The notes under the pieces were generated by a model. It made no database searches and was not told the origin of the DNA. It was given only the letters and a program-made list of their open reading frames with translations. A DNA stretch of 64,000 bases from Chaetoderma sp. LZ-2023a (taxonomy: Eukaryota > Mollusca > Caudofoveata > Chaetodermatida > Chaetodermatidae): NCBI GenBank assembly GCA_034401795.1, contig JAVVLW010001494.1, positions 1 through 64,000 on the forward strand, in the 5' to 3' direction. Of this stretch, positions 5,437 to 48,090 are shown piece after piece (the first letter of the stretch is position 1; each line of letters opens with the position of its first letter). The position numbers and the translations under genes are program-made.

Positions 5437-5439
5437 CGA

Positions 5440-24715: not shown

Positions 24716-25705
24716 ATCAGAGTTGCCCTTATGCGTCCTTTTGCGCGTATATATACGCATAAAGATGGCAGAGGGACGCATAAAAATGAACCCTCTGCGT
24801 CCCCGAGGTGTAACGGAAACTGGTAACTTTGCGTTCGCTTAATTATCGATTATATTATCGTGTGTGTATATTTATTTGTGCATGTTTTTACTTTAAAAAA
24901 TATACCTAATGTATTGTGTTCAATAAAAACAGACTTTCTGCGTTGTTTAAGACTATGATTTGTTGTATGTTTTCTTGCACAACTCAAAGTTGTTAATGCC
25001 CATAAATTAGATTCAACCGCCAAAATTAATTGTAAACACAATCCCCAGATCATCCTTAGTATTCCATTTGATCTAAATTTTTTATAAATAATGAGTTTAC
25101 AAGTCCGATGTCAGTCGCCTTGTTTGGCCTACAAATTGCAAAACTACCCGCCATGTTTCTGTATATTGTGCTAAACGTCAGTGTGACGTATTTGATTGGG
25201 TAACAGCGGAATTTCCCTCTAGCGGAACTCACGCTTGAGAAATCCAATACAACTGATCAAGCGTATACAAACGTGTCTGGGCGTCTTAACCCTTTCACAG
25301 CTCAGAACATTGGACAGATCAGATCACAAAGTTGTTATCACTAATATGCTGAATATTTTGAAATTAATTTGCGCATGCCTACTTGCCTAAAGCACGACTA
25401 ACAGGCAAAATATTGTTTTCTATTTACATATCAAAATATCTAAATGGATGAAGGAACATATGGAAGATATTGTGATATCTTTTACATTTGAATGGCCATT
25501 TGACGGATTAGCGGCGGTGTCTTTGTATTGCTGTTTGAATAACGGTATCAATACGCGCTATACGCTGTCTTTTATTTAGTAATAGCGGCTGATTGATTGA
25601 CTGATGGATTAGTGTTTATAATATTTAACAATACTCGATCGTTAGGTGTTCCCAATTTATCAACTAAAAAGCTCATCCCAGCAGCGATGTTCAACGATAT
25701 CGTCG
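24716..25705. other. Putative intron sequence, with a short palindrome cluster
   Basis: Near 24729-24808 there is a cluster of inverted motifs: the perfect palindrome GCGTATATATACGC at 24745-24758 and GCAGAGGG pairing with CCCTCTGC about 15 bases later (about 24768-24798). The remainder up to the DIRS copy shows no gene or known repeat. Confidence 0.45.
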
Positions 25706-25872
25706 TTCTCCTTCGATCAATACTCACCATTCTGTTACTTCTGATATACAGCTGGCCCTGACAGCGGCTCTAGGATTATAGACTTAGAAAGCTTTACCGA
25801 CTCCTGGGAACCGGCTCCCCACTGCCGAGTACCCGTTTACCATAGAGCTCATTTCTTGTTTGCATAGCAACA
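25706..25872 (+). repeat. Left inverted terminal repeat, copy A
   Basis: Starts TTCTCCTTCGATCAATACTC and is the reverse complement of the right repeat at about 32600-32755. The outermost bases, unique to the left end, are mirrored in the internal complementary region. Confidence 0.85.
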
Positions 25873-26119
25873 AGTGCAATACATGCTTTTCGCATTAAGG
25901 ATTTTAGTGTTTTGTAAAAGAATCTAAGTCTTTAATCAGTGATAGTTTGTGTGTTCTGAAAGGATAACTAATGACTATGGAGAATACCGCCCAAGATAAC
26001 CAGGTTGTATTGTTCTTTATATCCATAGTTAAAAGACTTAGGTCTCTAAATTTCGTTGTGTCGCATGTTCCAATTTCTAACCCCATAGAATCTGGGACGT
26101 GTGCTAGCAACGATATATG

Positions 26120-26265
26120 CCAGACGATCGCCTTCTTTAAACCCCAACAGGCGATCGGCAGATATGAAAATAGGTGTTTGCTACGGTATTTCTAACACGA
26201 ATATCGGCTGACGTCGTTCTCCGTAGAATCCGAGCGGGTGACGTCACACCCGGTCGCTTGGATGT
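26120..26265 (+). promoter_or_regulatory. Leader region of copy A: CRE palindrome inside a hairpin
   Basis: An 8-bp stem CGATCGCC/GGCGATCG occurs at 26125-26157. A perfect CRE (TGACGTCA, 26239-26246) sits in the loop of a second stem TCCGAGCG/CGCTTGGA at 26229-26262, which has one G-T wobble here and is perfect in copies B and D. This is the only promoter-like sequence before ORF1; a promoter role is inferred. Confidence 0.45.
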
Positions 26266-26814
26266 TTATGTGAAGAAAATTTTTTTCATTAATTCGCGCA
26301 TCTTGTTCTGGGTGCTGCGTACTAAAAAATGGTACCGGAAACTTTAGAATGATCAAGTTTACGTGCAATCACGATCGGTTTGCAATGATCGGTGGTTTCA
26401 AAATTCTTGAGTAGATGCGTGGTCTGCGGTTTTACCGTGTGAGACAGCAGTTGTTATACATTTTGTTGTTTTCTTCACATATCGTGCTGCGTTCGTTAGG
26501 AGTATAATTTATATTGATTAGTAAATATACCCTGAATGCTATGCGATATGATTCCTGGAGCCGTTACACATCCTGTAGGATCTATTATGGGTGTGTTGTG
26601 CCCGCCGCGTTCTTGTCGTCATAGTCAATGCGATCGTTGTTGTAACGTGGCGGGGTGGGGTGCGGGAGGTTACGGTTAATTTATGAGTCAAAATATTTGA
26701 AAATTAATTGTCTGCCTTCCATCCGTGTCTCGTTCCGCTTGTAGGTTTGTGCTTATTTTATAGGCCAAGCCAGCCCCGCCATCATGTGACGACTGCCATA
26801 AGTTTGTCCGTGTA

Positions 26815-28890
26815 ATGTTCAAGGACCATGTCTGTTTTAGGTGTGCCCTGTGTAATATAGATCATAGGTGTAATGTTTGTGCAGTATGGTCCGTCGAAAC
26901 AATGGTTAAGTTCCTTGCCCAGAAGGACTTGGCTGGGTCTGACGCGGGGTCAGGCGGTCCGAGAGGAAATCGTGGAGCGCCCGGTTCGGCCGGTGGGGGT
27001 GCTCCACGTCCCCAGCTGGAGGTGGCGGAGATGGCACCGCCGGCGTGGTTTGGTCCGGCTATGCAGGGTTTTCTGCATAGCGTTCTGCCCACGCTGGTGT
27101 CGTCCCTGCTACCAAAGGTTGGGGGGCAGTTTCTCCCCATGCCTGGTACGGATCCTGTCTTCGGACAGGATTCTGGACTGGTTACCGAGGGGGCCGTCTC
27201 GTACGGCCCCCTGGCGGGTCCGTCTGGCTTCGGCCAGACGGGTTCTGTCTCTCTGCGGCCACCTCCGGGTGGTCCAGTAGCGGTGGCCGGTCCGTCAGGT
27301 GTGGGAGCCGTCCGCCAGGACGGCTCCACGGTTTATTCGTCTAGTGACGGCTCTTCGGAGTCTGAAGACGATGAGGCCGAGGAGGAGAGGTTGCTGCGGC
27401 CCGTGAAGCCGCAGGTGGAGAATATGGAGGTTGATTCCGTCCTGGACGGAACCGGCCTCCATTTGTCTGGTTTGGCGCAAGCCAGGTCAGCGGCTCCGCC
27501 TGCGGCTGAGGCCAATCCGTTACCGTGCACCGGTTCCGCGCGGCTTGGTTTGTCACCAGCCGTCAGGGGAACCGGTGTGCCGGGCCAGGCGTGGTACTCA
27601 CCTATCTTGCCTGGTCCGGCAGCCGGACATGGGGTGCCGTTGGCGCCCGTGGCCGGCTATGGTTCCGCGACGGTTACGGGTCCGTACGGTTTTCCGTGCG
27701 GACCTACCCCATGGACCGGAGTGTTTCATGGGTTGGCGGCGGAACCATGTGGTAGCGGAGTGCCTGGCGTGTCAGCCGTGGCTCCTGGCCGGGAGGCCAT
27801 GGCTGGCAGACCCGTAAGCATGTCAACGGGTGACGTGTTTGCGGGGGTATCTTCTTCGGAGTTAGACTGGTCTGATGCTCTGGCGTGGCTAGCCAGAGTT
27901 GACCCGTCTGTGGTTTCGGCCACGGCCGATGAAGATGCGCCCCGTCCGTCGGTTGCGTCGATTAGGACGGGGATTTTGCCCGTGGCCCGGATCCAGTCAG
28001 TGGGACTGGATCCACGGTTCATTGATTTGTTGGATGCTATTTATAGTAAACAACTAATGACCAAGGGTCAGCTCCCTGCGGCCTCCAGGGAGGTGCGGGC
28101 AAGGTGCCGTATTCCGCGGGGTGAATACGACAGGTATGGTGTAGTCCCGTCGGTCACGGAGGATGACCGATGGGTACTGGGCGTCCAGAGTGCCGGTTCG
28201 GGTGGTCCCGGTCCGGCACTAGTGGATAAGGCCCAGGTACACCAGGAAGAAGTCCTGGCCCTATGCGATGAGGGTGTGAGGGCAGCCATGAGCGCTGTCA
28301 ATCACTCCTATCGTCTACTTCAGTCGGTGTGGGCTGAAGCGGGGGCAGGCCACCCTGTGCCACCTGTGGCGCTATCGTGCGTTAATGACGGCTTGGTGCT
28401 GTCAATGGACGCATTGGCAAGGGTGCAAGCGCGTGTGACGAAGTCCAGGAGGCAAATGGTCATTGACCATATGCGTCCGGCTACGGCAGTCAAGGAGCGT
28501 CTTCTTGGGACGCCCCTGACAGGGCCTAGCATCTTTGGTGGCCAAGCGCGGGCCATCTTAGAGGACACCGCCAGTATTGCGCAGAATCGGTTAGCGGTAA
28601 ATCTAGAGCTAGTGCGGCAAGCGCACGCACTAGGGGCTGTGGGTAAGCCGCTAACAGTACAGCCTTCAAAGAAACAGAAAAAGCATAAGGGCAAGGCGAA
28701 AGCCAGGCCTATTGCGACGTCTGTTTCGGCTGGGTTTTCGGAGCCGCCGCCGGCGAAGAAACCCAGGAAGGCTGTAGAGGCGCCTACCCTCCCCAATGTT
28801 GCTCCGGACCGCCCTAGAGGTGGTAAGGGCAAGGGGAAGGGTAAGGGTAAGGCCTCAAAGGGCGGACAGAAGGGGCCGAAGCGTACCTGA
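26815..28890 (+). CDS. DIRS ORF1, gag-like (691 aa), copy A
   Basis: An open frame with a Cys/His-rich start (C7, C10, C13, H17, C19, C22, zinc-ribbon-like), a long Gly/Pro/Ser-rich section with an acidic patch (SESEDDEAEEE, about residue 180), a more ordered part from about 380 to 600, and a basic Gly/Lys C-terminus. By position it is the structural (gag-like) protein of DIRS elements; I recognise no named domain. The ATG at 26815 is used because the Cys cluster is conserved, but an ATG at about 26905 (MVKFLAQ) is possible. The DNA is filled with perfect hairpins. The TGA stop lies in the loop of a GCGTACC/GGTACGC stem (28881-28898). ORF2 starts within its last 95 bases, in another frame. 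Confidence 0.8.
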   Translation: MFKDHVCFRCALCNIDHRCNVCAVWSVETMVKFLAQKDLAGSDAGSGGPRGNRGAPGSAGGGAPRPQLEVAEMAPPAWFGPAMQGFLHSVLPTLVSSLLPKVGGQFLPMPGTDPVFGQDSGLVTEGAVSYGPLAGPSGFGQTGSVSLRPPPGGPVAVAGPSGVGAVRQDGSTVYSSSDGSSESEDDEAEEERLLRPVKPQVENMEVDSVLDGTGLHLSGLAQARSAAPPAAEANPLPCTGSARLGLSPAVRGTGVPGQAWYSPILPGPAAGHGVPLAPVAGYGSATVTGPYGFPCGPTPWTGVFHGLAAEPCGSGVPGVSAVAPGREAMAGRPVSMSTGDVFAGVSSSELDWSDALAWLARVDPSVVSATADEDAPRPSVASIRTGILPVARIQSVGLDPRFIDLLDAIYSKQLMTKGQLPAASREVRARCRIPRGEYDRYGVVPSVTEDDRWVLGVQSAGSGGPGPALVDKAQVHQEEVLALCDEGVRAAMSAVNHSYRLLQSVWAEAGAGHPVPPVALSCVNDGLVLSMDALARVQARVTKSRRQMVIDHMRPATAVKERLLGTPLTGPSIFGGQARAILEDTASIAQNRLAVNLELVRQAHALGAVGKPLTVQPSKKQKKHKGKAKARPIATSVSAGFSEPPPAKKPRKAVEAPTLPNVAPDRPRGGKGKGKGKGKASKGGQKGPKRT

Positions 28891-31800
28891 GGGTACGCAA
28901 GCTCCCTTCATATCCGCCTGGACCGCACCTGTGCGACAGGAACAGCGGTGCCAGTTATACCCGTCGTGCCTAGAACGAAATGGTTCTCACTCTCTCTCGT
29001 TAAGAAAGGGGGGGTGGACTGCGAGCCGGACAACCCCGTTAGACGTCGAGGCGTCTATGGTGGGTGGAAGGCTCATGCGTTTCGTCGAGGCTTGGCGAGG
29101 TGTGACGTCAGACAGTCTGGTCCTGGGATGGTTATCCCAGGGTTACATGCCGGAGTGGTGGGACTTTCCGCCACAAAATCTGTCTTTGGCACCAGTCTGG
29201 ACACCCGTACCAAGGGAGCCAGACAAGTTAGAAGCCGTTCAAAAGGAAGTGTCGGGTTTGCTTCTGAAGGGAGCAATAAAACCAGCAAACCGGAACACTC
29301 CAGGCTTCTATTCAAACATGTTCCTTGTCCCCAAGAGCACGGGGGGATGGAGACCCATACTCAATCTCAGGCCATTAAATTGGTTTATCCATACGCCTCG
29401 GTTCCAGATGGAAACACCGAGGTCGGTAATGGCGGGATTGAGGAAAGGAATGTGGTGTGTATCGATCGATCTGAAAGATGCATATTTCCACATTCCGATC
29501 AATCGGAGTTGGCACAGGTTTCTGAGATTTGCGTTTCAGAATCAAGTATGGGAGTTTACAGTTCTCCCGTTTGGCCTGTCGACAGCTCCGAGGGTTTTCA
29601 CAAGAGTGGTCCTTGCGGTGACAGCGTTTCTCAGAAAAGAGAACGTGGCGCTACACACCTACATAGACGACTGGCTGCTCAAGGCAGACTCGGCAGCCAG
29701 GTTGAACGTGGATACTGCTCTGACTCTGAAGTTACTTTCAGATCTAGGCTGGATAGTCAACGAGGAGAAATCCGAGTTGACACCCACTCAACATTTCGTT
29801 TATTTGGGGATGCGATTCGACCTCGAGGAGGGCAGGGTTTACCCGTCAGAGCCCAGAGTGGTGTCTCTGTTAGCCATCCTCGGGAGTTTTCGAGTGGGAA
29901 ACCACATTCAGGCAAGGCGGTTCCTTCAGATGCTGGGCATGATGGTCTCCATGGAGCAGGTTATCCCGTACGCTGCTCTAATGTGAAGACCTATCCAGCT
30001 GTATCTGATGTCTCTGTGGAAACAGAGAACAGAACCCCTGTCAAAACTGGTGCCAGTTTTGGAGCCGATAATATCGCATCTTCTATGGTGGAAACAGCGT
30101 CAGAATCTCCTATTAGGGGTTTCGCTGCACCTACCCCACCCCCAGCTGTCCGTCTACACGGATGCATCGCTGGAAGGGTGGGGTGCCTGCCTGGGAGAAC
30201 ACCAGGTCTCGGGCACATGGACTCTCCCGGAGAGTCAGCTGCATATCAATCTGTTGGAAATGATGGCAGTGGAACTGGCGTTGGAAGAGTTCCTTCCGAT
30301 GATCAGGGGCAAGGTGATATTGATACGGTCGGACAATTCGACAGTAGTATCATATATAAATCGCCAAGGAGGGACCAGGTCGCCCACCCTGTGCATCAGG
30401 GTGTGGCACTTGATTCAATGGTGCAGGAATTACTCGGTTGTTTTGAAAGCAGCTCATATTCCTGGCCGATTGAACATTCTGGCGGATGCTTTGTCTCGCA
30501 GACAGAGAATCCTGCCAACAGAATGGTCCCTCAACCCTCCAGTTCTACGACGGATCTTCGAGCATTGGGGCAAACCCAACGTGGACTTGTTCGCCACAAA
30601 GGAAAATGCTCAAATCATGACATATGTCTCGCCGATTCCAGATCCAAATGCCGTCGATACAGACGCTCTGGCGATAAGCTGGAGAGGGATGCACGCTTAC
30701 GCGTATCCACCCACCATTCTTCTACCGAAGGTATTGGTGAAGGTCAGGGAGGAACCGTGTCTGGTCCTGCTAATAGCGCCGTATTGGCCGAGCAGGGCGT
30801 GGTTCACGGATCTTCTAGATCTGCTGGTGGAAAATCCTGTGCAGTTGCCCGAGATTCCGAACATAATCTCCCAGGCCAAGGGACGCTTCCTACACGAGCG
30901 TCCCGAAATGTTCAAATTGACTGCGTGGATGTTGTCAAACAACGTTCCACGTCGGAAGGCTTTTCTCGATAGGCTGCTGATTTCATCGCGGCTGCGAGAA
31001 GGAGGTCAACCTTCAAGTCATATAACAACAAGGTTAACAGATTTGCAGACTGGTGTGAAGAAAAGGGTATTGATACCTTTCAATCCACTATTCAGCAAAT
31101 AGCAGACTTTCTCTGTGAGCTGTTCTTTACAGGACTAGCTCCCGTCACAATTGCTGGATACAAGTCAGCTTTGGCATCAGTTATCCCTTGTCTAGCCAAC
31201 AGGGATAGTCCAGAGGTGGCCCAGTTAAACGTGATGTTGAAGGGAATGAGCAATCTCCGCCCGAGACAACCGGTGGTCATTCCAGCCTGGAGTCTATCTT
31301 TAGTGCTTAATGTACTGGCCAAGCACCCATTCGAACCGTTGCGTTCGGCTAGTCTAAAGCATTTGACTCTAAAGGCGGTCTTTCTATTGGCAGCTTCCTC
31401 AGCTAGAAGGCGCAGTGAGATCCATGCGCTTTCGGCAGAGAGGAACCGATTTATTGTTTCTGGAGAAGGTCTGCGTCGTCTGCCTAGAGCAGAATTTATG
31501 TCAAAGAACCAATCTTTGAGATATCCCGGCAAACCGATCATTATACCGAAGTTAACCAGGTTTGATCGTGATGCCAGTGTCTGGTGCCCGGTCCGTGCTT
31601 TGACTAAGTACAAGAAACGGACTGACTCGTTACGGTCGAACGATAGACATCTGTGGATCTGCCATAAAAAGCCTTATGGCGCGCATCCATGGATACTATC
31701 TCTCGTTGGGTGGTCGAATGCATTCAGACTACTCATGAGATGGCGACTGGGCACCAGGTGCAGGGCGTAAGGGCACACGATGTTAGAGGAATAGCCGCCT

Positions 31801-31943
31801 CGACCGCCCTTTACAATGGTGTTCCGTTAGAGGACATCATGGCCGTTGCACAATGGCACTGTGAGTCCTCATTTACGGATTACTATATGAGGGATGTGTC
31901 AGACTCAGCCAATCCACTCGCTTTAGCTGTTTTGAAACGATAG
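28796..31943 (+). pseudogene. DIRS pol region (RT, RNase H, recombinase), copy A
   Basis: Carries in order a DIRS-type reverse transcriptase (STGGWRPILNLRPLNWF, SIDLKDAYFHIPI, YIDDWLLKA), RNase H (YTDASLEGWGA, the IRSDNSTVVSYINRQGG block, ADALSR) and a tyrosine recombinase (SARRRSEIHAL, HDVRGIAAS, AQWHCE, TDYYMRD). These copy the RNA and insert the circular product. Broken in about three places; copy D shows the family in open form. Confidence 0.85.
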
Positions 31944-32442
31944 TTAGTGACCACCCTGCTTTTCCCCTTTTTTCACTTTGGTAAGAAAAGAACCTAAAGC
32001 AGGCATGGTCAAGCGAGAGGATGTCAACCAGATTGTGTCACTGATGGCCGAACCGGTGTATGGTTGTAGGCGGTACGTCTGAAGTCCTGTTATCATAAGG
32101 TAATTCAACAAGTGAGAGTTTTTTGTATTATGTATATGTATCATGTTCATTCATCTTATATATTCATGCTCATTCCCAGGCTAATACAAGCGATATGCAG
32201 GGAGTAGTTAACCCTCTTGGCATATTGGTGTTTTCAGGCGAGATACATGTTCGTTAGTTCTCTCCCTTTTCTTAGGAGGAAAAAGGGGGAGGGGCTGTGA
32301 CGCGAATGTGATTCGGTTCCGTGAACTTGACGGTCCTTTTAGGTCTCCGTTAGTCAAGTTTGAAGTCTAAAATCTTTCTCCAAGGGGCAAAATTAGCATG
32401 TATGGCTTGCCCCTTCCCACCAGGTTACTGATCAAATCTGGT

Positions 32443-32545
32443 GTATATCAGAAGTAACAGAATGGTGAGTATTGATCGAAGGAGAATGCAGGAAATGTCA
32501 ATTTCCCTTTCTCCGAGATCTAACAATACTCACCATTCTGTTACG
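32443..32545 (+). repeat. Internal complementary region, copy A
   Basis: Contains the reverse complement of the outer left end (GATCGAAGGAGAA) fused directly to that of the outer right end (TGCAGGAAATGTCAATTTCC). It is flanked by GTAACAGAATGGTGAGTATT and its reverse complement. This is the DIRS signature: the internal copy records the junction of the circular intermediate. Confidence 0.85.
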
Positions 32546-32599
32546 GACCCAGCCTCCCAGCCCCACGGAGGCAAGCCATAGTTTTCTCTTGTTTGGTGG

Positions 32600-32792
32600 C
32601 TATGCAAACAATATGAGCTCAATGGTAAACGGGTACTCGGCAGTGGGGAGCCGGGTACCCGGTTCCCAGGAGTCGGTAAAGCTTTCTAAGTCTATAATCC
32701 TAGAGCCGCTGTCAGGGCCAGCTGTATATCAGAAGTAACAGAATGGTGAGTATTGTTAGATCTCGGAGAAAGGGAAATTGACATTTCCTGCA
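32600..32792 (+). repeat. Right inverted terminal repeat, copy A
   Basis: Reverse complement of the left repeat, then the right-specific extension ending GACATTTCCTGCA at 32792. Confidence 0.8.
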
Positions 32793-33704
32793 ATCTCCAG
32801 GTAGGCATACGTTAAAATATTGATTTTTTCCAAACAGCGTATAGTTCAAAGCTCCCAGATACAAGCGTCGTTATTGGATACATGCTAATGCGTTATCTAT
32901 GCTTCAACCAATCAGCAATCGCGTTACATAGTTCCTCCCTATGAATTAGGGATATTCGGTTATTGGCTGATATATTTTCACTAATTACGCAGTTTAATCT
33001 GATTTATACAGATTATTTTTTGATAAATTATTGTTTCGTCTGATTTTAGCTTATGTATTCCACTATATTTAGAGGTTCCAGTTACATTATAAAAAATATG
33101 CGCGCATTATATCGAAGAAGGTTAAGTCATCCTTGAGAAAACTCGCCCCAGACACTCGTAATTTTTCAATTCGTCCAAAGTCAAGTCAGGGTTTAATAGA
33201 AAAACTAATGCAGTGGTCTTTGCTAATTACTAATGTAGTGGTCTTTGGAAATGTTAATCATACAAGGGTGTCAATGTAGGTTGGTTGGTTTATCAGACAA
33301 CAAACAAGTACAGTGCTTTAAGTTATTGTTTATTGACATGCAGTTCAAATGTTATTAGTTAAATATACAAGGGCCATTTCAATAGATAAATTTTAGCAAC
33401 CATTGTAGATCACAGAATACATATTTTTGAAAATTTACCACTGCATAGTTAATATTCTCTATATATACATTGACAGTATTTACACAATGTCATAACTAGT
33501 GCTTTCAACATGTTTAATAAAGTACTTTATAATTAGATCAATGTTTTTTTGAGAAAAAAACATGGGACCCCCATATTTCAGATGAGGACCCCATGGGCCC
33601 CCCCCCCCCCCCGATTTTACAGTGGGACCCCCAAATCTGAGTCTGGGGTCCTTGGGACCCACAAAAATCAGATGTTGTGGGCAACACTGCACGGTATACA
33701 GGTT
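32793..33704. other. No gene; GC-skewed patch near the end
   Basis: Mostly AT-rich sequence without supportable genes. At about 33560-33680 several GGGACCC/GGGTCC motifs cluster around a run of about 15 C at 33598-33612. Confidence 0.5.
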
Positions 33705-35182: not shown

Positions 35183-35260
35183 ACAGGGTTCTGGACTGGT
35201 TACCGAGGGGGCCGTCTCGTACGGCCCCCTGGCAGTCCCGTCTGGTTCCGGACTGGCGGG
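35183..35260 (+). mobile_element. Orphan scrap of DIRS ORF1 next to copy B
   Basis: About 78 bp match ORF1 of copy B at 36737-36812, including the GGGGGCCGT/ACGGCCCCC hairpin and the GGCAGTCCCGT variant typical of B rather than A or D. It ends GGCGGG and joins the left end of B at TTCTCC. Confidence 0.75.
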
Positions 35261-38200
35261 TTCTCCTTCGATCAATACTCACCATTCTGTTACTTCTGAT
35301 ATACAGCTGGCCCTGACAGCGGCTCTAGGATTATAGACTTAGAAAGCTTTACCGACTCCTGGGAACCGGGTACCCGGCTCCCCACTGCCGAGTACCCGTT
35401 TACCATAGAGCTCATTCTTGTTTGCATAGCGACAAGAGCAATACATGCTTTTTGCATTAAGGATTTTAGTGTTTTAAAATAATCTAAGTCTTTAATCAGT
35501 GATAGTTTGTGTGTTCTGAAAGGATTAACTAAGGACTATGGAGAATACCGCCCAAGACAACCAGGTTGTATTGTTCTTTATTATCCATAGTTAAAAGACG
35601 TAGGTCTCTAAATTTTGTTGTGTCGCATTTTCCAATTTCTGTCCCCATAGAATCTGGGACGTGTGCTAACAACGATATATGCCAGACGATCGCCTTCTTT
35701 AAACCCCAACAGGCGATCGGCAGATATGAAAATAGGTGTTTGCTACGGTATTTCTAACACGAATATCGGCTGACGTCGTTCTCCGTAGAATCCGAGCGGG
35801 TGACGTCACACCCGGTCGCTCGGATGTTTATGTGAAGAAAATTTTTTCATTAATTCGCGCATCTTATTCTGGGTGCTGCGTACTAAAAATGGTACCGGAA
35901 ACTTTAGAATGATCAAGTTTACGTGTGATCACGATCGGTTTGCAATGATCGGTGGTTTCAAAATTCTTGAGTAGATGTGTGGTCTGCGGTTTTACCGTGT
36001 GAGACAGCAGTTTTGTTATACATTTTGTTGTTTTCTTCACATATCGTGCTGCGTTCGTTAGGAGTATAATTTATATTGATTAGTAAATATACCCTGAATG
36101 CTATGCGATATGATTCCTGGAGCCGTTACACATCCTGGAGGATCTATTATGGGTGTGTTGTGCCCGCCGCGTACTTGTCGTCATAATCAATGCGATCGTT
36201 GTTGTAACGTGGCGGGGTGGGGTGCGGGGAGGTTACGGTTAATTTATGAGTCAAATTATTTGAAAATTAATTGTCTGCCTTCCATCCGGGTCTCGTTCCG
36301 CTTGTTTATTGTAGGTTTGTGCTTATTTTATAGGCCAAGCCAGCCCCGCCATCATGTGACGACTGCCATAAGTTTGTCCGTGTAATGTTCAAGGACCATG
36401 TCTGTTTTATGTGTGCCCTGTGTAATATAGATCATAGGTGTAATGTTTGTGCAGTGTGGTCCGTCGAAACGATGGTTAAGTTCCTTGCCCAGAAGGACTT
36501 GGCTGGGTCTGACGCGGGGTCAGGCGGTCCGAGAGTAAATCGTGGAGCGCCCGGTTCGGCCGGTGCGGGTGCTCCACGTCCCCGGCTGGAGGTGGCGGAG
36601 ATGGCACCGCCGGCGTGGTTTGGTCCGGCTCTGCAGGGTTTTTCTGCATAGCGTTCTGACCACGCTGGTGTCGTCCCTGCTACCAAAGGTTGGGGGGCAG
36701 TTTCTCCCCATGCCTGGTACGGATCCTGTCCTCGGACAGGATTCTGGACTGGTTACCGAGGGGGCCGTCTCGTACGGCCCCCTGGCAGTCCCGTCTGGCT
36801 TCGGCCAGACGGGTTTTCTGTTTCTCTGCGGCCACCTCCGGGTGGTCCAGTAGCGGTGGCCGGTCCGTCAGGTGTGGGAGCCGTCCGCCAGGACGGTTCC
36901 ACGGTTGACTCGTCTAGTGACGACTCTTCGGAGTCTGAAGACGAGGAGGCCGAGGAGGAGAGGTTGCTGCGGCCCGTGAAGCCGCAGGTGGAGAATATGG
37001 AGGTTGATTCCGTCCTAGACGGAACCGGCCTCCATTTGTCTGGTTTGGCGCAAGCCAGGTCAGCGGCTCCGCCTGTGGCTGAGGCAAATCCGTTACCGTG
37101 CACCGGTTCCGTGCGGCTTGGTTTGGCACCAGCCGTCACGGGAACGGGTGTGCCGGGCCGGGCGTGGTACTCACCTATCTCGCCTGGTCCGGCAGTCGGA
37201 CGTGGGGTGCCGTGGGCGCCCGTGTCCGCCTATGGTTCCGCGACTGCTACGGGTCCGTACGGTTTTTCCGTGTGGACCTACCCCATGGACCGGAGTGTTT
37301 CATGGGGTGGCGGCGGAACCGTGTGGTACCGGAGTGCCTGGCGTGTCAGCCGTGGCTCCTTGCTGGGAGGCCGTGGCTGGCAGACCCGTGAGCACGTCAA
37401 CGGGTGACGTGTTTGCGGGGGTGTCTTCATCGGAGGTAGATTGGTCAGATGCCCTGGCGTGGCTAGCCAGGGTTGACCCGTCTGTGGTTTCGGCCACGGC
37501 CGATGAAGATGCGCCCCGTCCGTCGGTTGCGTCGATCAGGACGGGGATTTTGCCCGCGGCCCGGATCCAGTCAGTGGGACTGGATCCACGGTTCATAGAA
37601 TGGTTGGATGCTATTTATAGCAAACAACTGATGACCAAGGGTCAGCTCCCTGCGGCCTCCAGGGAGGTGCGGGCAAGATGTCGTATTCCGCGGGGGGAAT
37701 ACGACAGGTATGGTGTAGTCCCGTCGGTCACGGAGGATGACCGATGGGTACTGGGCGTCCAGAGTGCCGTGCCGGGTCACCCCGGTCCGGCACTTGTGGA
37801 CAAGTCTCAGGTACACCAGGAAGAAGTCCTGTCCCTATGCGATGAGGGTGTGAGGGCAGCGATGAGCGCTGTCAACCACTCTTATCGTCTCCTTCAGTCG
37901 GTGTGGGCTGAAGCGGGGCAGGCCACCCTGTGCCACCTGTGGCGCTTTCATGTGTCAATGACGGCCTGGTGCTGTCGATGGACGCATTGGCAAGGGTGCA
38001 AGCGCGTGTGACGAAATCCAGGAGGCAAATGGTCATTGACCATATGCGTCCGGCTACGGCAGTCAGGGAGCGTCTCCGTGGGACACCCCTGACAGGGCCT
38101 AGCATCTTCGGTGGCCAAGCGTGGGCCATCTTAGAGGATACTGGCGGTATCGCGCAGAATCGGTTAGCGGTAAACCTACAGCTAGAGCTAGTGCGACAAG

Positions 38201-41200
38201 CGCATGCACTAGGGCCTGTGGGGAAACCGCTAACGGGACAACCTTCAAAGGAGCAGAAGAAGCATAAGGGCAAGGCGAAAGCTAGGCCTGTTGCGACTTC
38301 TGCTTCAGCTGGGGTTTCAGAGCCGCCGCCGGCGAAGAAGCCCAGGAAGGTTGTAGAGGCGCCTACCCTCCCCAATGTTGCTCCTGACCGCCCTAGAGGT
38401 GGGAAGGGGAAGGGTAAGGCCTCAAAGGGCGGACAGAAGGGGCCGAAGCGTACCTGAGGGTACGAAAGCTCCCTTCATATCCGCCTGGACCGCGCCTGTG
38501 TGACAGGAACAGCGGTGCCAGTTATACCCGTCGTGCCTAGAACGAAATGGTTCTCTCTCTCTCTCGTTAAGAAAGAGTGGGGGGGCGGACTGCGAGCCGG
38601 ACAACCCCGTTAGACGTCGAGGCGTCTATGGTGGGTGGAAGGCTCATGCGTTTCGTCGAGGCCTGGCAAGGTGTGACGTCAGACAGTCTGGTCCTGGGAT
38701 GGTTATCCCAGGGTTACATGCCGGAGTGGTGGGACTTTCCACCACAAAATCTGTCTTTGGCACCTGTCTGGACACCCGTACCAAGGGAGCCAGACAAGTT
38801 AGAAGCCGTTCAAAAGGAAGTGTCGGGTTTGCTTCTGAAGGGAGCAATAAAACCAGCAAATCGAAACACTCCAGGCTTCTATTCAAACATGTTCCTTGTC
38901 CCCAAGAGCACAGGGGGATGGAGACCCATACTCAATCTCAGGCCATTAAATTGGTTTAGCCATACGCCTCGGTTCCAGATGGAAATGCCGAGGTCGGTAA
39001 TGCGGGATTGAGGAAAGGAATGTGGTGTGTATCGATCGATCTGAAAAATGCATATTTCCACATTCCTATGAATCGGAGTTGGCACAGGTTTCTGAGATTT
39101 GCGTTTCAGAATCAAGTATGGGAGTTTACAGTCTCCCGTTTGGCCTGTCGACAGCTCCGAGGGTTTTCACAAGAGTGGTCCTTGCGGTGACAGCGTTTCT
39201 CAGAAAAGAGAACGTGGCGCTACACACCTACATAGACGACTGGCTGCTTAAGGCAGACTCGGCAGCCAGGTTGAACGTGGATACTGCTCTGACTCTGAAG
39301 TTACTTTCAGATCTACGCTGCATAGTCAACGAGGAGAAATCTGAGTTGACGCCCACTCAACGTTTCGTTTATTTGGGGATGCGATTCGACCTTGAGGATG
39401 GCAGGGTTTACCCATCAGAGCCCAGAGTGGTGTCTCTGTTAGCCATCCTCAAGAGTTTTCGAGTGGGAAACCACATTCAAGGCGAGGCGGTTCCTTCAGA
39501 TGCTGGGCATGATGGTCTCCATGGAGCAGGTTATCCCGTACGATGCTCTAATGCGAAGGCCTATCCAGTTGTATCTGATGTCTCTGTGGAAACAGAGAAC
39601 AGAACCCCTGTCAAAACTGTTGCCAGTTTTGGAGCCGATAATATCGCATCTTCTATGGTGGAAACAGCGTCAGAATCTCCTATTAGGGGTTTCGCTGCAC
39701 CTACCCCGCCTCCAGCTGTCCGTCTACACGGATGCATCGCTGGAAGGGTGGGGTGCCTGCCTGGGAGAACCAGGTCTCGGGCACATGGACTCTCCCGGAG
39801 AGTCAGCTGCATATCAATCTGTTGGAAATGATGGCAGTGGAACTGGCGTTGGAAGAGTTCCTTCCGATGATCAGGGGCATGGTGATATTGATACGGTCGG
39901 TCGATTCGACAGTAGTATCATATATAAATCGCCAAGGCGGGACCAGGTCGCCCACTTTGTGTATCAGGGTGTGGCACTTGATTCAATGGTGCAGGAATTA
40001 CTCGGTTGTTTTGAAAGCAGCTCGTATTCCTGGCCGATTGAACATTCTGGCGGATGCTTTGTCTCGCAGACAGAGAATCCTGCCAACAGAATGGTCCCTC
40101 AACCCTCCAGTTCTGCGACGGATCTTCGAGCATTGGGGCAAACCCAACGTGGACTTGTTCGCCACAAAGGAAAATGCTCAAATCATGACATATGTCTCGC
40201 CGATTACAGATCCAAATGCCGTCGATACAGACGCTCTGGCGATAAGCTGGAGAGGGATGCACGCTTACGCGTACCCACCCACCATTCTTCTACCGAAGGT
40301 TTTGGTGAAGGTCAGGGAGGAACCGTGTCTGGTCCTGCTAATAGCGTCGTATTGGCCGAGCAGGGCGTGGTTCACAGATCTTCTAGATCTGCTGGTGGAA
40401 AATCCTGTGCAGTTGCCCGAGATTCCGAACATAATCTCCCAGGCCAAGGGACGCTTCCTACACGAGTGTCCCGAAATGTTCAATGACTGCGTGGATGTTA
40501 TCAAACAACGTTCCACGTCGGAAGGCTTTTCTCGACAGGCTGCTGATTTCATCGCGGCTGCGAGAAGGAGGTCAACCTTCAAGTCATATAACAACAAGGT
40601 TAACAGATTTGCAGACTGGTGTGAAGAAAAGGGTATTGATACCTTTCAATCCACTATCAGCAAATAGCAGACTTTCTCTGTGAGCTGTTCTTTTGAGGAC
40701 TAGCTCCCGTCACAGTTGCTGGATACAAGTCAGCTTTGGCATCAGTTATCCCTTGTCTAGCCAACAGGGATAGTCCAGAGGTGGCCCAGTTAAATGTGAT
40801 GTTGAAGGGAATGAGCAATCTCCGACCGAGACAACCGGTAGTCATTCCAGCCTGGAGTCTATCTTTAGTGCTTAATGTACTGGCCAAGCACCCTTTCGAA
40901 CCGTTGCGTTCGGCTAGTCTAAAGCATTTGACTCTAAAGGCGGTCTTTCTATTGGCAGCTTCCTCAGCTAGAAGGCACAGTGAGATCCATGCGCTTTCGG
41001 CAGAGAGGAACCGATTTATTGTTTCTGGAGAAGGTCTGCGTCTTCTGCCAAGAGCAGAGTTTATGTCAAAGAACCAATCTTTGACATATCCCGGCAAACC
41101 GATCATTATACCAAAGTTAACTAGGTTTGATCGTGATGCCAGTGTCTGGTGCCCGGTCCGTGCTTTGACTAAGTACAAGAAACGGACTGACTCGTTACGG

Positions 41201-44885: not shown

Positions 44886-46008
44886 TTCTCCTTCGATCAA
44901 TACTCACCATTCTGTTACTTCTGATATACAGCTGGCCCTGACAGCGGCTCTAGGATTATAGACTTAGAAAGCTTTACCGACTCCTGGGAACCGGGTACCC
45001 GGCTCCCCACTGCCGAGTACCCGTTTACCATAGAGCTCATTCTTGTTTGCATAGCAACAAGTGCAATACATGCTTTTCGCATTAAGGATTTTAGTGTTTT
45101 TTAAAAGAATCTAAGTCTTTAATCAGTGATAGTTTGTGTGTTCTGAAAGGATAACTAAGGACTATGGAGAATACCGCCCAAGATAACCAGGTTGTATTGT
45201 TCTTTATATCCATAGTTAAAAGACTTAGGTCTCTAAATTTCGTTGTGTCGCATGTTCCAATTTCTAACCCCATAGAATCTGGGACGTGTGCTAGCAACGA
45301 TATATGCCAGACGATCGCCTTCTTTAAACCCCAACAGGCGATCGGCAGATATGAAAATAGGTGTTTGCTACGGTATTTCTAACACGAATATCGGCTGACG
45401 TCGTTCTCCGTAGAATCCGAGCGGGTGACGTCACACCCGGTCGCTCGGATGTTTATGTGAAGAAAAAATTTTTCATTAATTCGCGCATCTTGTTCGGGGT
45501 GCTGCGTACTAAAAAATGGTACCGGAAACTTTAGAATGATCAAGTTTACGTGCGATCACGATCGGTTTGCAATGATCGGTGGTTTCAAAATTCTTGAGTA
45601 GATGCATGGTCTGCGGTTTTACCGTGTGAGACAGCAGTTGTTATACATTTTGTTGTTTTCTTCACATATCGTGCTGCGTTCGTTAGGAGTATAATTTATA
45701 TTGATTAGTAAATATACCCTGAATGCTATGCGATATGATTCCTGGAGCCGTTACACATCCTGTAGGATCTATTATGGGTGTGTTGTGCCCGCCGCGTTCT
45801 TGTCGTCATAATCAATGCGATCGTTGTTGTAACGTGGCGGGGTGGGGTGCGGGAGGTTACGGTTAATTTATGAGTCAAAATATTTGAAAATTAATTGTCT
45901 GCCTTCCATCCGTGTCTCGTTCCGCTTGTTTATTGTAGGTTTGTGCTTATTTTATAGGCCAAGCCAGCCCCGCCATCATGTGACGACTGCCATAAGTTTG
46001 TCCGTGTA

Positions 46009-48090
46009 ATGTTCAAGGACCATGTCTGTTTTAGGTGTGCCCTGTGTAATATAGATCATAGGTGTAATGTTTGTGCAGTGTGGTCCGTCGAAACGATGGT
46101 TAAGTTCCTTGCCCAGAAGGACTTGGCTGGGTCTGACGCGGGGTCAGGCGGTCCGAGAGGAAATCGTGGAGCGCCCGGTTCGGCCGGTGGGGGTGCTCCA
46201 CGTCCCCAGCTGGAGGTGGCGGAGATGGCACCGCCGGCGTGGTTTGGTCCGGCTATGCAGGGTTTTCTGCATAGCGTTCTGCCCACGCTGGTGTCGTCCC
46301 TTCTACCAAAGGTTGGGGGGCAGTTTCTCCCCATGCCTGGTACGGATCCTGTCTTCGGACAGGATTCTGGACTGGTTACCGAGGGGGCCGTCTCGTACGG
46401 CCCCCTGGCGGGTCCGTCTGGCTTCGGCCAGACGGGTTCTGTCTCTCTGCGGCCACCTCCGGGTGGTCCAGTAGCGGTGGCCGGTCTGTCAGGTGTGGGA
46501 GCCGTCCGCCAGGACGGCTCCACGGTTTATTCGTCTAGTGACGGCTCTTCGGAGTCTGAAGACGATGAGGCCGAGGAGGAGAGGTTGCTGCGGCCCGTGA
46601 AGCCGCAGGTGGAGAATATGGAGGTTGATTCCGTCCTGGACGGAACCGGCCTCCATTTGTCTGGTTTGGCGCAAGCCAGGTCAGCGGCTCCGCCTGCGGC
46701 TGAGGCCAATCCGTTACCGTGCACCGGTTCCGCGCGGCTTGGTTTGTCACCAGCCGTCAGGGGAACCGGTGTGCCGGGCCAGGCGTGGTACTCACCTATC
46801 TCGCCTGGTCCGGCAGCCGGACATGGGGTGCCGTTGGCGCCCGTGGCCGGCTATGGTTCCGCGATGGTTACGGGTCCGTACGGTTTTCCATGCGGACCTA
46901 CCCCATGGACCGGAGTGTTTCATGGGGTGGCGGCGGAACCATGTGGTAGCGGAGTGCCTGGCGTGTCAGCCGTGGCTCCTGGCCCGGAGGCCATGGCTGG
47001 CAGACCCGTAAGCATGTCAACGGGTGACGTGTTTGCGGGGGTATCTTCTTCGGAGGTAGACTGGTCTGATGCTCTGGCATGGCTAGCCAGAGTTGACCCG
47101 TCTGTGGTTTCGGCCACGGCCGATGAAGATGCGCCCCGTCCGTCGGTTGCGTCGATTAGGACGGGGATTTTGCCCGCGGCCCGGATCCAGTCAGTGGGAC
47201 TGGATCCACGGTTCATTGATTTGTTGGATGCTATTTATAGTAAACAACTAATGACCAAGGGTCAGCTCCCTGCGGCCTCCAGGGAGGTGCGGGCAAGGTG
47301 CCGTATTCCGCGGGGTGAATACGACAGGTATGGTGTAGTCCCGTCGGTCACGGAGGATGACCGATGGGTACTGGGCGTCCAGAGTGCCGGGTCGGGTGGT
47401 CCCGGTCCGGCACTAGTGGATAAGGCCCAGGTACACCAGGAAGAAGTCCTGGCCCTATGCGATGAGGGTGTAAGGGCAGCCATGAGCGCTGTCAATCACT
47501 CCTATCGTCTACTTCAGTCGGTGTGGGCTGAAGCGGGGGCAGGCCACCCTGTGCCACCTCTGGCGCTATCGTGCGTTAATGACGGCTTGGTGCTGTCAAT
47601 GGACGCATTGGCAAGGGTGCAAGCGCTTGTGACGAAGTCCAGGAGGCAAATGGTCATTGACCATATGCGTCCGGCTACGGCAGTCAGGGAGCGTCTTCTT
47701 GGGACGCCCCTGACAGGGCCTAGCATCTTTGGTGACCAAGCGCGGGCCATCTTAGAGGACACCGCCAGTATTGCGCAGAATCGGTTAGCGGTAAATCTCC
47801 AGCTAGAGCTGGTGCGGCAAGTGCACGCACTAGGGGCTGTGGGCAAGCCGCTAACCGGACAGCCTTCAAAGAAACAGAAAAAGCATAAGGGCAAGGCGAA
47901 AGCCAGGCCTATTGCGACGTCTGTTTCGGCTGGGTTCTCGGAGCCGCTGCCGGCGAAGAAACCCAGGAAGGCTGTAGAGGCGCCTACCCTCCCCAATGTT
48001 GCTCCTGACCGCCCTAGAGGTGGTAAGGGCAAGGGGAAGGGTAAGGGTAAGGCCTCAAAGGGCGGACAGAAGGGGCCGAAGCGTACCTGA
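46009..48090 (+). CDS. DIRS ORF1, gag-like (693 aa), copy D
   Basis: Same layout as in copy A, differing at roughly 15-20 residues: a Cys/His cluster at residues 7-22, a Gly/Pro-rich middle, an acidic patch, and a C-terminus of alternating Gly and Lys that is likely nucleic-acid binding. No catalytic motif. The hairpin series is present at the same relative positions (for example the GGATCCAGTC stem at 47183-47207). ORF2 begins 95 bases before its stop in another frame, so reinitiation or a programmed shift may link the two; which one is not visible here. Confidence 0.8.
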   Translation: MFKDHVCFRCALCNIDHRCNVCAVWSVETMVKFLAQKDLAGSDAGSGGPRGNRGAPGSAGGGAPRPQLEVAEMAPPAWFGPAMQGFLHSVLPTLVSSLLPKVGGQFLPMPGTDPVFGQDSGLVTEGAVSYGPLAGPSGFGQTGSVSLRPPPGGPVAVAGLSGVGAVRQDGSTVYSSSDGSSESEDDEAEEERLLRPVKPQVENMEVDSVLDGTGLHLSGLAQARSAAPPAAEANPLPCTGSARLGLSPAVRGTGVPGQAWYSPISPGPAAGHGVPLAPVAGYGSAMVTGPYGFPCGPTPWTGVFHGVAAEPCGSGVPGVSAVAPGPEAMAGRPVSMSTGDVFAGVSSSEVDWSDALAWLARVDPSVVSATADEDAPRPSVASIRTGILPAARIQSVGLDPRFIDLLDAIYSKQLMTKGQLPAASREVRARCRIPRGEYDRYGVVPSVTEDDRWVLGVQSAGSGGPGPALVDKAQVHQEEVLALCDEGVRAAMSAVNHSYRLLQSVWAEAGAGHPVPPLALSCVNDGLVLSMDALARVQALVTKSRRQMVIDHMRPATAVRERLLGTPLTGPSIFGDQARAILEDTASIAQNRLAVNLQLELVRQVHALGAVGKPLTGQPSKKQKKHKGKAKARPIATSVSAGFSEPLPAKKPRKAVEAPTLPNVAPDRPRGGKGKGKGKGKASKGGQKGPKRT

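Follow-up and report, generated by a model that had tools for sequence, protein, structure and literature searches.

The DIRS element and its copies

Our analysis covered a window of 64,000 nucleotides of Chaetoderma sp. LZ-2023a DNA, i.e., the whole stretch. Within it, a 7.1-kb DIRS repeat unit occupies 25705..32799 on the + strand (copy A) and is common to 35260-42361 (95.7%) and 44886-51991 (98.5%). The termini of copy A are inverted repeats (25718-25871 versus 32596-32755, 92%), and both have their complement within 32442-32544: 32442-32486 is complementary to 25706-25750 (100%), and 32481-32544 to 32735-32798 (98%). These internal complementary regions overlap at 32481-32486, as in the DIRS1-like definition of PMC3266345. 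The flanks of copy A, as read by eye, show no evident target-site duplication beyond a shared TCTCC.

The gag-like ORF1 of copy A (26764..28890, + strand; 708 codons from stop to stop) is GC-rich and packed with stems. It is followed on the same strand by the ORF2-3 region (28891..31951; RT-YR below), which encodes reverse transcriptase, RNase H and tyrosine recombinase and folds significantly, more strongly in the sense orientation. In copy D, the reverse transcriptase matches RVT_1 (Pfam, E 3.8e-22) and the RNase H matches RT_RNaseH (E 4.4e-5, just under its Pfam cut-off). The element has a tyrosine recombinase and no integrase (Phage_int_SAM_1, E 0.0015, below its Pfam cut-off); some homologues carry phage-integrase Pfam domains, and at its C-terminus we read an HxxR...W...Y pattern, which we take to be the tyrosine recombinase motif. 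ORF1 matches no Pfam family at E<=0.1, and its protein, which ends in a basic Lys/Gly tail, has no homologue at E<=1e-3 among 8000 candidates scored. Rfam gives no match at the gathering threshold in 25600-33000. Copy D has an ORF1 (45958..48090, + strand) with stem counts equal to those of copy A, while in the ORF1 region of copy B (36250..38470, + strand) the frames are broken and the hairpins are retained with some changes.

Judged from its sequence, the element is DIRS1-like: it combines reverse transcriptase and RNase H with a tyrosine recombinase, inverted terminal repeats and internal complementary regions. It resembles the DIRS1-like retrotransposons of the overview PMC3266345 in these last three features, including the meeting of the complementary regions at the circular junction.

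Hairpins in ORF1 and their excess over shuffles

The sequence-only reading had described ORF1 and the start of ORF2 as packed with short perfect hairpins. All 13 that it listed lie where it placed them, although the first has 9 bp (27058-27081) rather than 8, and the loop of that at 28189-28220 has 16 nt. Its count of seven or more perfect stems (8 bp or longer, loops of 3-8) also stands: 26971-29141 contains seven, starting at 27058, 27152, 27188, 27220, 27304, 27989 and 29122. On the + strand, hairpin 1 (27058..27081) has nine Watson-Crick pairs and one G-U; hairpin 2 (27150..27173) has a perfect 8-bp core (27152-27171) plus a G-U and a G-C pair; hairpins 3 (27188..27212) and 5 (27304..27327) have 10 bp each; and hairpin 4 (27219..27242) has, in copy A, nine Watson-Crick pairs, a U-G and a cUUCGg loop. 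Further hairpins on this strand are at 27394..27414 (7 bp), 27614..27628 (6 bp), 27877..27899 (7 bp Watson-Crick and one G-U), 27989..28013 (10 bp), 28072..28092 (7 bp), 28146..28174 (11 pairs, one of them a wobble) and, at the start of ORF2, 29122..29141 (8 bp, largely retained in the copies compared). The original list did not include the + strand hairpins at 27435..27451 (7 bp with a loop of 3, or 8 bp if a loop of 1 is allowed), 27770..27808 (16 pairs in the consensus fold of a 27-copy alignment), 28108..28129 (7 bp) and 28881..28898 (7 bp), the last of which marks the end of ORF1, its loop containing the TGA stop codon, and is partly broken or wobbled in other copies. Also absent from it were hairpins at 27256-27289 (8 bp, loop of 18), 27940-27972 (8 bp, loop of 17) and 28609-28633.

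We compared perfect stems with loops of 3-8 to 200 shuffles per null type. ORF1 of copy A has 15, 12, 6, 5 and 3 stems of at least 6, 7, 8, 9 and 10 bp, respectively. The corresponding means are 3.3, 0.9, 0.2, 0.04 and 0.00 for dinucleotide shuffles, 4.4, 1.3, 0.4, 0.08 and 0.02 for codon permutation, and 4.2, 1.2, 0.3, 0.07 and 0.01 for shuffles that keep amino acids, codons and dinucleotides. For every length class and every null, 0 of 200 shuffles reached the observed count. The ORF1 hairpins are therefore real and far above chance, and their excess survives the amino acid- and dinucleotide-preserving shuffles that had been suggested as a check (12 versus 1.2 at 7 bp or more).

The excess comes from the first two thirds of the ORF1 sequence: no stem of at least 7 bp with a loop of 3-8 occurs in the final 660 nt (28231-28890). 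By loop size (40 shuffles), it is concentrated at loops of 4-7 (10 observed versus 0.8 expected), with 3 versus 0.4 at loop 1, and is about twofold or less for loops of 13-80, except for 2.5-fold at 13-40 (8 versus 3.2). In the RT-YR region of copy D, we counted 8 stems of 7 bp or more versus 1.25 in shuffles (reached in 0 of 200), none of them of 9 bp or more. Six other long ORFs in the window contain 0-1 such stems of 7 bp or more. It might be supposed that the stems are a by-product of GC-rich, low-complexity coding sequence, given that ORF1 is about 61% GC and abundant in Gly, Pro, Ser and Ala. However, the shuffles that keep codons and dinucleotides fall short of the observed stems and so refute this idea, and the gag of a distant relative (L002), at 57% GC, has no stem of at least 6 bp. 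We give this explanation practically no credence.

Folding, strand and conservation of pairing

Both coding regions are predicted to fold beyond shuffles, so the structure is not confined to the 2.2 kb of ORF1 and the start of ORF2 first described, but extends through RT-YR. With amino acids and dinucleotides kept, MFED is 24.6% for ORF1 (z -14), and 22.6% sense versus 11.8% antisense for RT-YR of copy D; for 28891..31951 of copy A, it is 21.1% sense and 12.0% antisense. All 14 of the 350-nt fragments of the copy A ORFs have MFED of 11-35% (mean 23.7%), and ORFs of the main family have 20-28% (350-nt fragments), while four control stretches in the window have 0.0-8.2%. In consensus folding of 34 overlapping windows, the mean z is -2.58 sense and -1.20 antisense (Wilcoxon p=0.005). 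Two long consensus stem-loops on the + strand are at 27026..27108, enclosing hairpin 1 (alifold window 27004-27123; sense z -10.2, antisense -1.6), and at 28177..28236, enclosing the 28189-28220 hairpin (window 28144-28263; sense z -7.9, antisense +0.1).

Conservation was analyzed in 31 ORF1 copies, i.e., copy A and 30 others that are 79-97% identical to it. Stems exceed the shuffle mean in 31 of 31 (3-14 versus 0.3-1.1). For the 98 stem pairs of copy A, 94.6% of cells are paired in the 30 other copies; a tree-preserving null gives 84.2 +- 2.5% and reached the observed value in 0 of 300 replicates. Three individual hairpins on the + strand have comparable values: 27679..27704 (11 pairs with a wobble; 94.3% of cells paired, and a two-sided C-G to U-A change in L054), 27811..27845 (15 pairs, with three G-U in copy A; 93.1%, mainly via G-U exchanges) and 27877..27899 (96.3%, with U-A, U-G and C-G at one pair).

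Covariation was found in some of these structures. In alignment A2, four ORF1 hairpins have 24 cells with two-sided changes versus 9.6 in shuffles (0/500) and 1-3 in slid structures. Hairpin 1 alternates between G-C and A-U at one pair (helix 1; AU 15, GC 8, GU 1), hairpin 2 between U-A and C-G (CG 18, UA 4, other 2), and hairpin 4 has a two-sided U-A / G-U difference between subfamilies (GU 18, UA 4, AU 1, other 1) as well as a second variable pair (GC 10, GU 10, AU 3, other 1). The 27770..27808 hairpin has two such pairs (AU 17, GC 5, GU 5; AU 18, CG 8, GU 1; 27 copies). One pair of hairpin 3 is unpaired in 16 of 24 copies (mostly A-C by eye; GC 5, AU 3), which counts partly against conserved pairing. 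Moreover, the number of pairs with two-sided changes is not above shuffles in A2 (115/500) or above the tree null (164/300), and neither are further pair types in A2 (468/500) or the covariation score of alignment A3 (78/500) above shuffles. In A3, one slid structure has 7 two-sided cells versus 4 in the true structure, and the majority of changes are single-sided G-U exchanges.

Perfect hairpins could also arise and persist without any function if errors of replication or reverse transcription rewrite one arm of an imperfect inverted repeat to match the other. Such template switching has been proposed as an origin of RNA hairpins (PMC8794818), and arm copying is discussed, in PMC6649704, for coding palindromes of Nematomorpha mitochondria. 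It would fit an excess made up of perfect stems with short loops, and antisense folding that is almost as strong as sense in ORF1 (24.7% versus 27.5% in copy A, 26.0% versus 25.0% in copy D). However, template switching should also act on terminal branches. In a clade of 26 copies without copy A, changes at the pairs of copy A leave them paired versus unpaired in the ratio 27:10 on internal branches, but 62:96 on terminal branches (p=0.00023). Template switching also corrects to Watson-Crick pairs, with no reason to favor G-U over A-C, and the two-sided U-A / G-U difference in hairpin 4 likewise speaks against it. G-U states are common internally and terminal changes are mostly unpaired, which is not what arm conversion to perfect Watson-Crick pairs predicts. 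We therefore regard template switching as improbable.

The choice between G-U and A-C also bears on which strand folds. Within ORF1 of copy A, wobble stems of at least 9 pairs give no clear strand preference (GT 5 versus 1.8 expected, AC 4 versus 0.7). Over all internal branches, Watson-Crick pairs changed to G-U versus A-C in the ratios 16:8, 16:9, 26:12 and 40:16 in four overlapping pair sets (binomial p versus background of 0.045, 0.071, 0.007 and 0.0002); in the clade without copy A, the ratio is 15:6 on internal and 42:53 on terminal branches. Contrasts of G-U versus A-C between internal and terminal branches have Fisher p values of only 0.05-0.18. Because G-U replacements exceed A-C on internal branches, these data point to the sense RNA as the folding strand, although antisense folding of ORF1 is nearly equal.

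This bias argues against structures that serve a single-stranded or circular DNA intermediate or recombinase landing sites, a suggestion of the sequence-only reading in its single-stranded DNA form, with the same reservation about antisense folding of ORF1. Other observations are compatible with such a role, e.g., tandem units containing only YR begin at about 30218, beside a hairpin (30220-30236), copy B adjoins an 84-nt ORF1 fragment whose end is next to a hairpin, and 16 of 33 deletion breakpoints are in hairpins, which make up 22% of the sequence (p=0.0009). However, a TCTCC-like sequence is common to the 30218 joints and the element end and accounts for these joints with no need of hairpins, and reverse transcription of folded RNA would be expected to cause deletions in hairpins as well. 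A DNA role is, in our judgment, very improbable.

Rates of change differ between loops and stems. At third codon positions on internal branches, per-site values are 0.95 for loops, 0.32 for stems and 0.65 between hairpins; in the clade without copy A, they are 0.55 for loops and 0.23 for stems (p=0.08, 22 loop sites). Thus, loops change no more slowly than the sequence around them. Stem-site rates on internal versus terminal branches of the whole tree differ in two of three pair sets (p 0.009-0.036; 0.64 in the third), with no such contrast in the clade without copy A (p 0.27).

Specific gag-coding hairpins might instead be packaging or dimerization signals bound by the ORF1 protein. Structure peaks in ORF1, whose protein has the basic tail, and PMC11381356 places packaging and dimerization sequences of Ty1, Ty3 and HIV-1 in a structured 5' end. 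However, the loops are variable with no shared motif seen by eye, which gives no support to packaging signals with a common loop sequence, and folding runs on through RT-YR, where hairpin positions are not conserved between families (the comparison by position covered RT-YR). We consider this explanation unlikely.

A probably selected fold and its possible use

A second DIRS family in the same genome (L063-L068), about 60% identical in RT-YR amino acids, is also strongly folded, with MFED of 14-21% over five loci (350-nt fragments) and 22-29% sense in gag-side main ORFs (L063, L064 and L066); in L066 gag, antisense is about as strong as sense (26.1% versus 26.5%). No stem of 7 bp or more in L063-L068 coincides with any of the 8 RT-YR hairpins of copy D, although one L067 stem partly overlaps one. 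Positions in RT-YR thus differ between families, while hairpins are retained within a family. In distant relatives (L001, L002 and L003; RT-YR 29-44% amino acid identity), each ORF contains 0-1 stems of 7 bp or more, and L003 has no excess folding either. Relatives without hairpins, which the sequence-only reading had named as refuting evidence, were thus seen only at this distance; within the family, all 31 ORF1 copies compared have stems in excess.

We conclude that selection probably acts on the sense RNA of this DIRS retrotransposon to fold, throughout its coding region and above all in ORF1, into a succession of short stem-loops. Three computed results show this: structure exceeds that of shuffles, pairing is conserved among the copies of the family, and internal branches favor G-U over A-C. 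The same evidence, with stems retained across subfamilies, favors the structured RNA that the sequence-only reading had suggested. RNA shape as well as protein appears to be under selection, as pairing was retained while letters changed. Because loops vary, and because the second family is strongly folded with its RT-YR hairpins elsewhere, folding as such, rather than any single hairpin, would be the target. ORF1 may hold most structure partly because its middle, rich in Gly, Pro, Ser and Ala, tolerates it, reverse transcriptase and recombinase being more constrained. Our best guess for its use is that compaction or shielding could make the genomic RNA easier to package with the basic-tailed ORF1 protein or less recognizable to the small-RNA or dsRNA systems of the host.

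The nearest parallel is genome-scale ordered RNA structure (GORS; PMC3950689), in which the coding region likewise folds far more strongly than its shuffles, into consecutive stem-loops whose positions are poorly kept between relatives (here, between families). The MFED of 20-28% in the main DIRS family and 14-21% in the second compares with quoted viral values of 7-9% for HCV, 15% for SARS-CoV-2 and a maximum of 23.4%, the shuffling and fragment layout being similar but not identical. This is a likeness in working, not membership, as DIRS is a retrotransposon and not a positive-strand RNA virus with a link to host persistence. In addition, DIRS stems are individually retained across copies 79-97% identical, and structure is highest in the gag-like ORF. 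Highly structured regions within coding sequence also occur in the SHAPE-mapped genomic RNAs of Ty1, Ty3 and HIV-1, a mosaic in which lowSS regions reach up to 30% (Ty1, Ty3) or about 40% (HIV-1) (PMC11381356); however, these are A-rich LTR elements and a retrovirus, while this DIRS element has GC-rich perfect hairpins predicted by computation. Nematomorpha palindromes, as described in PMC6649704, are likewise perfect inverted repeats within reading frames, but are long (up to 284 bp), gained and lost between species, and suspected of arm conversion, whereas DIRS stems are short and maintained by G-U-tolerant substitutions.

The main text of the DIRS1-like overview (PMC3266345) uses none of the terms hairpin, stem, palindrom- or secondary structure, and the open-licence PMC papers searched on DIRS, hairpins, RNA structure, packaging and GORS describe no such DIRS structure in their titles or abstract beginnings. 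A broader proposal, which we hold only tentatively, is that animal DIRS elements generally may carry genome-scale ordered RNA structure that matches the most structured RNA viruses and shields or compacts genomic RNA, being selected as folding, with hairpins kept for a while and then replaced.

Pervasive selected RNA structure in coding sequence is a topic of RNA virus research, and a few LTR retroelements have had theirs mapped. Here, predicted folding is on a par with that of the most structured RNA viruses quoted, and dozens of genomic copies supply the evolutionary evidence. These copies are a natural experiment, in which internal branches show selection and terminal branches mostly post-insertion decay. 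How DIRS RNA is packaged, is copied and escapes host silencing thereby become directly testable questions.

Hairpins in the coding region of the element

Copy A (25705-32799) is the 7.1-kb DIRS element that carries the hairpins. Its gag-like ORF1 (26764..28890, plus strand) contains 12 stems of 7 bp or more where 1.2 are expected, and 5 of 9 bp or more where 0.07 are expected; in neither case did any of 200 shuffles that kept amino acids, codons and dinucleotides reach the observed number. A sequence-only reading had claimed dense perfect hairpins for 26971..29141. All the hairpins it listed are present in copy A, and the excess persists in the shuffle check it proposed. The excess peaks at loops of 4-7 nt (10 stems against 0.8), and is weak at most for loops longer than 12 nt. 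One hairpin of 7 bp at the end of ORF1 (28881-28898) holds the TGA stop in its loop; in other copies this hairpin is intact, has wobbles or is partly broken. In 2-kb steps across the window, gag of the three DIRS elements ranked highest (8, 11 and 12 stems), steps in the reverse transcriptase and tyrosine recombinase region (RT-YR, i.e., ORF2-3) had 3-6 stems, and DNA outside the DIRS cluster had 0-4, against 0.2-1.1 expected. Stems of at least 7 bp number 0-1 in each of six other long ORFs in the window.

Copies B (35260-42361) and D (44886-51991) are 95.7% and 98.5% repeats of A. The element has RT with RNase H, a tyrosine recombinase and inverted ends, and its internal complementary regions overlap at a circle junction, as PMC3266345 describes for DIRS1-like elements. 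The kinds of repeats, together with homologues named after a scallop, a sea urchin and a mussel, point to an animal host. No ORF1 homologue was found among 8000 protein candidates scored (E<=1e-3), and viral contigs yielded no homologue of either ORF1 or RT-YR. Within the host genome (2.44 Gb), which holds at least two divergent DIRS families, DIRS-like RT stretches are apparently very numerous (107,931 first-look candidates for one RT-YR query, the best 46 of which were scored).

Three recombinase-only tandem units (42351-44898, 51989-54541 and 54531-57006) start in ORF2 at the position corresponding to 30218 of A, and each abuts the right end of the upstream element at a CTCTCC site; we interpret them as self-insertion or tandem arrays made by the recombinase. 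Immediately left of copy B lies a diverged 84-nt ORF1 fragment (35181-35264, 89%), which begins within one hairpin's loop and stops next to a second hairpin. The idea that hairpins are landing sites of the recombinase was dropped after tracing the junction sequences, because the joints share TCTCC. A 12-nt indel lies in the Lys/Gly repeat of ORF1 (28825-28837), where A has the longer form and 11 of the 30 other aligned copies have the gap. Opposite ORF1, the minus strand has two long open frames of 156 codons (26862-27332) and 195 codons (28320-28907); copy D has them too, and they are probably a by-product of composition.

Pairing among copies and along the tree

The ORF1 copies compared all come from one genome, and each search scored its best ~40 matches. 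From the best 40 places of the first set, 8 were cut as loci L007-L014, which lie outside the 31-copy set, and a further 6 were taken; the best 40 of the second gave 14, and the best 40 of the third gave 20 besides L035 itself, hand-picked to spread over the ranking. Six were taken from the best 46 places for RT-YR. Of one batch of 20 loci, 9 entered the 31-copy set. Loci L037-L040 were excluded as young copies, and L024, L026, L029, L030, L031, L033 and L034 for large gaps or little ORF1, although L026, L030 and L031 still entered one hairpin comparison. The resulting alignment comprises A, B, L041, L042 and 27 others that share 79-89% identity with A. A length filter was passed by 24 of the 31 copies for sub-alignment A2 and by 27 for A3, and the RNAalifold consensus was computed from A3 only.

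Stems of at least 7 bp exceed the shuffle mean in all 31 copies (3-14 against 0.3-1.1), the lowest copy, L054, having 3 against 0.9. The same hairpins recur in register with both arms altered: G-C and A-U exchange in hairpin 1 (27058..27081), U-A and C-G in hairpin 2 (27150..27173), U-A and G-U in hairpin 4 (27219..27242), and U-A, U-G and C-G at 27877-27899. Hairpin 3 (27188..27212) is an exception, with one pair unpaired in 16 of 24 copies. The RNAalifold consensus of 27 copies has 75 pairs over 237 columns, two-sided changes occurring at 9 of these pairs, and includes a 16-pair stem at 27770-27808 that was absent from the sequence-only list (pair types AU 17, GC 5, GU 5 and AU 18, CG 8, GU 1).

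Under a tree-preserving null rooted at A, cells at A's pairs are paired more often than expected (94.6% against 84.2 +- 2.5%, 0/300), and paired cells with two-sided changes are also in excess (87 against 49 +- 22, 16/300); the number of pairs with a two-sided change is not (14 against 13.8, 164/300). In A2, 94.6% of cells are paired, versus 28-46% in slid structures, and two-sided cells number 24 against 9.6 in shuffles (0/500), with no clear excess in the number of pairs changed on both sides (6 against 4.8, 115/500). The corresponding values for A3 are 94.2% versus 33-44%, and 4 two-sided cells against 2.3 (98/500), one slid structure reaching 7.

We used a single FastTree estimate with ancestral states picked by parsimony, and took internal branches as the life of active lineages and terminal branches as mostly decay after insertion. 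Because stem-site rates over all internal branches are partly biased, the stems having been picked as intact in A, we relied on the clade excluding A (26 copies). There, 27 changes at A's pairs ended paired and 10 unpaired on internal branches, compared with 62 and 96 on terminal ones (Fisher p=0.00023), and WC pairs changed to GU or AC at 15:6 on internal and 42:53 on terminal branches. Over all internal branches, four overlapping pair sets gave 16:8, 16:9, 26:12 and 40:16 for this comparison (binomial p 0.045, 0.071, 0.007 and 0.0002 against a background share of 248/524); internal versus terminal, Fisher p was 0.05, 0.10 and 0.18 at three pair-support thresholds.

At third codon positions, changes per site in stems, in loops, between hairpins and in the C-terminal part were 0.32, 0.95, 0.65 and 0.85 on internal branches, and 0.86, 1.36, 1.30 and 1.20 on terminal ones. 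In the clade without A, internal stem rates were 0.23, versus 0.46 at other sites (p=0.002) and 0.55 in loops (p=0.08), and terminal ones 0.83 versus 1.14 (p=0.012); the internal/terminal rate ratio there was not significant (p=0.27).

In our reading, pairing is under selection, with G-U tolerated and the loop letters of little weight, as is expected of a structure in sense-strand RNA. Template switching (PMC8794818) would give the hairpins a purely mutational origin, but it would neither spare terminal branches nor prefer G-U. Besides packaging signals, the sequence-only reading had offered structured RNA and a single-stranded DNA intermediate: G-U-tolerant pairing supports structured RNA, and use in single-stranded DNA gives no reason for G-U to be preferred to A-C.

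In old copies (ORF1 of L023, L025, L027, L028, L036, L045, L061 and others), deletions 12 nt or longer break inside hairpins more often than expected, at 16 of 33 breakpoints in 22% of the sequence (p=0.0009), with gap placement near inverted repeats uncertain. These are perhaps jumps of reverse transcriptase on folded RNA.

Folding energy and strand

In 150-nt windows, with shuffles keeping codons and dinucleotides, folding energy exceeds shuffles by 24.6% in ORF1 of A (z -14.1; antisense 23.8%) and by 22.6% in RT-YR of D (z -13.2; antisense 11.8%, z -4.6), versus -5.7 to 15.4% in eight other ORFs of the window (maximum at 5245-6003, z -2.9). With 350-nt fragments and dinucleotide shuffles, which is close to the published method for the folding-energy excess (MFED), the ORFs of A have 23.7% (antisense 18.4%), all 14 fragments reaching at least 11%, and four control stretches have 0.0-8.2%. 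Published values quoted in PMC7642675 are 7-9% for HCV, 15% for SARS-CoV-2 and a maximum of 23.4%.

In ORF1, antisense folding in 350-nt fragments is near or even exceeds sense (antisense versus sense: A 24.7 and 27.5%, D 26.0 and 25.0%, L043 23.7 and 23.3%), whereas sense is clearly ahead in ORF2-3 (sense versus antisense: A 21.1 and 12.0%, D 20.0 and 14.0%). Wobble asymmetry within single copies is indecisive between strands. Consensus folding in 34 overlapping windows gave a mean z of -2.58 sense and -1.20 antisense, with sense lower in 22 (Wilcoxon p=0.0046, optimistic given the overlap); 27364-27483 is strongly antisense (-7.2).

Comparing folding after random placement of A-to-B and D-to-T substitutions gave z -2.2 to -5.5 in sense, but two of the five rows had an out-of-frame reference (18 stops), and we rejected the test because, with a common ancestor, the real descendant carries fewer changes than the random one. 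Strong folding, mostly in sense, is also seen in the 5' leader before ORF1, with z -4.1 in sense and -1.0 in antisense at 26006-26155, and -3.5 and -1.4 at 26456-26605.

Related elements and possible use

A second DIRS family in the same genome (six loci, L063-L068) has ~60% amino acid identity to the main family in RT-YR and ~31% in gag where alignable. In sense, the main ORF on the gag side has an MFED of 29.3% in L063, 22.1% in L064 and 26.5% in L066; another on the gag side of L063 has 11.6%. RT-YR frames have 14-18% (L063, L064, L066 and L068), and the fused frames reach 20.2% in L065 and 22.5% in L067. For the same frames the antisense range is 12-26%. In 350-nt fragments, five loci (L068 left out) have 14.5-21.3%. 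Stems clearly outnumber the shuffle mean in gag and RT-YR of L066 (6 against 0.9 and 7 against 1.2), in L067 (11 against 2.4) and in gag of L064 (4 against 0.6), whereas L063, L065 and L068 show little or no excess. At the places of D's 8 RT-YR hairpins, L063-L068 have no coinciding stem of 7 bp or more, although one L067 stem partly overlaps one of them. Because the second family is folded, but with its RT-YR hairpins elsewhere, the data suggest that the folding trait outlives individual hairpins.

A contig search yielded six further loci, two of which (L005 and L006) hold RT fragments only and entered a single comparison. The others, L001-L004, lie in contigs filed as bacterial (Bathymodiolus symbiont, Proteobacteria MAG, Parachlamydia MAG and Micromonospora), which are probably contamination from a host or another eukaryote. 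The gag, RT and YR of L001-L003 have 0-1 stems of at least 7 bp each; 6-bp stems are in mild excess in L001 (gag 8 against 3.5, RT 9 against 4.9; 2/60 shuffles each), and YR of L004 has 4 stems of 7 bp or more where 1.1 are expected (1/60). MFED in 350-nt fragments is 15.3% in L002, 11.0% in L004, 9.3% in L001 and 0.6% in L003. The trait is not universal among DIRS-like elements, since folding is less pronounced in L002 and the mussel-associated L001 and lacking in L003.

On evidence that is computational throughout, we consider it quite likely that the folding of the sense RNA is selected. One candidate use is shielding or compaction of the RNA, which would fit because the structure is spread over the coding region, has variable loops and occupies other positions in the second family. 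Another is packaging, which would fit because structure peaks in ORF1.
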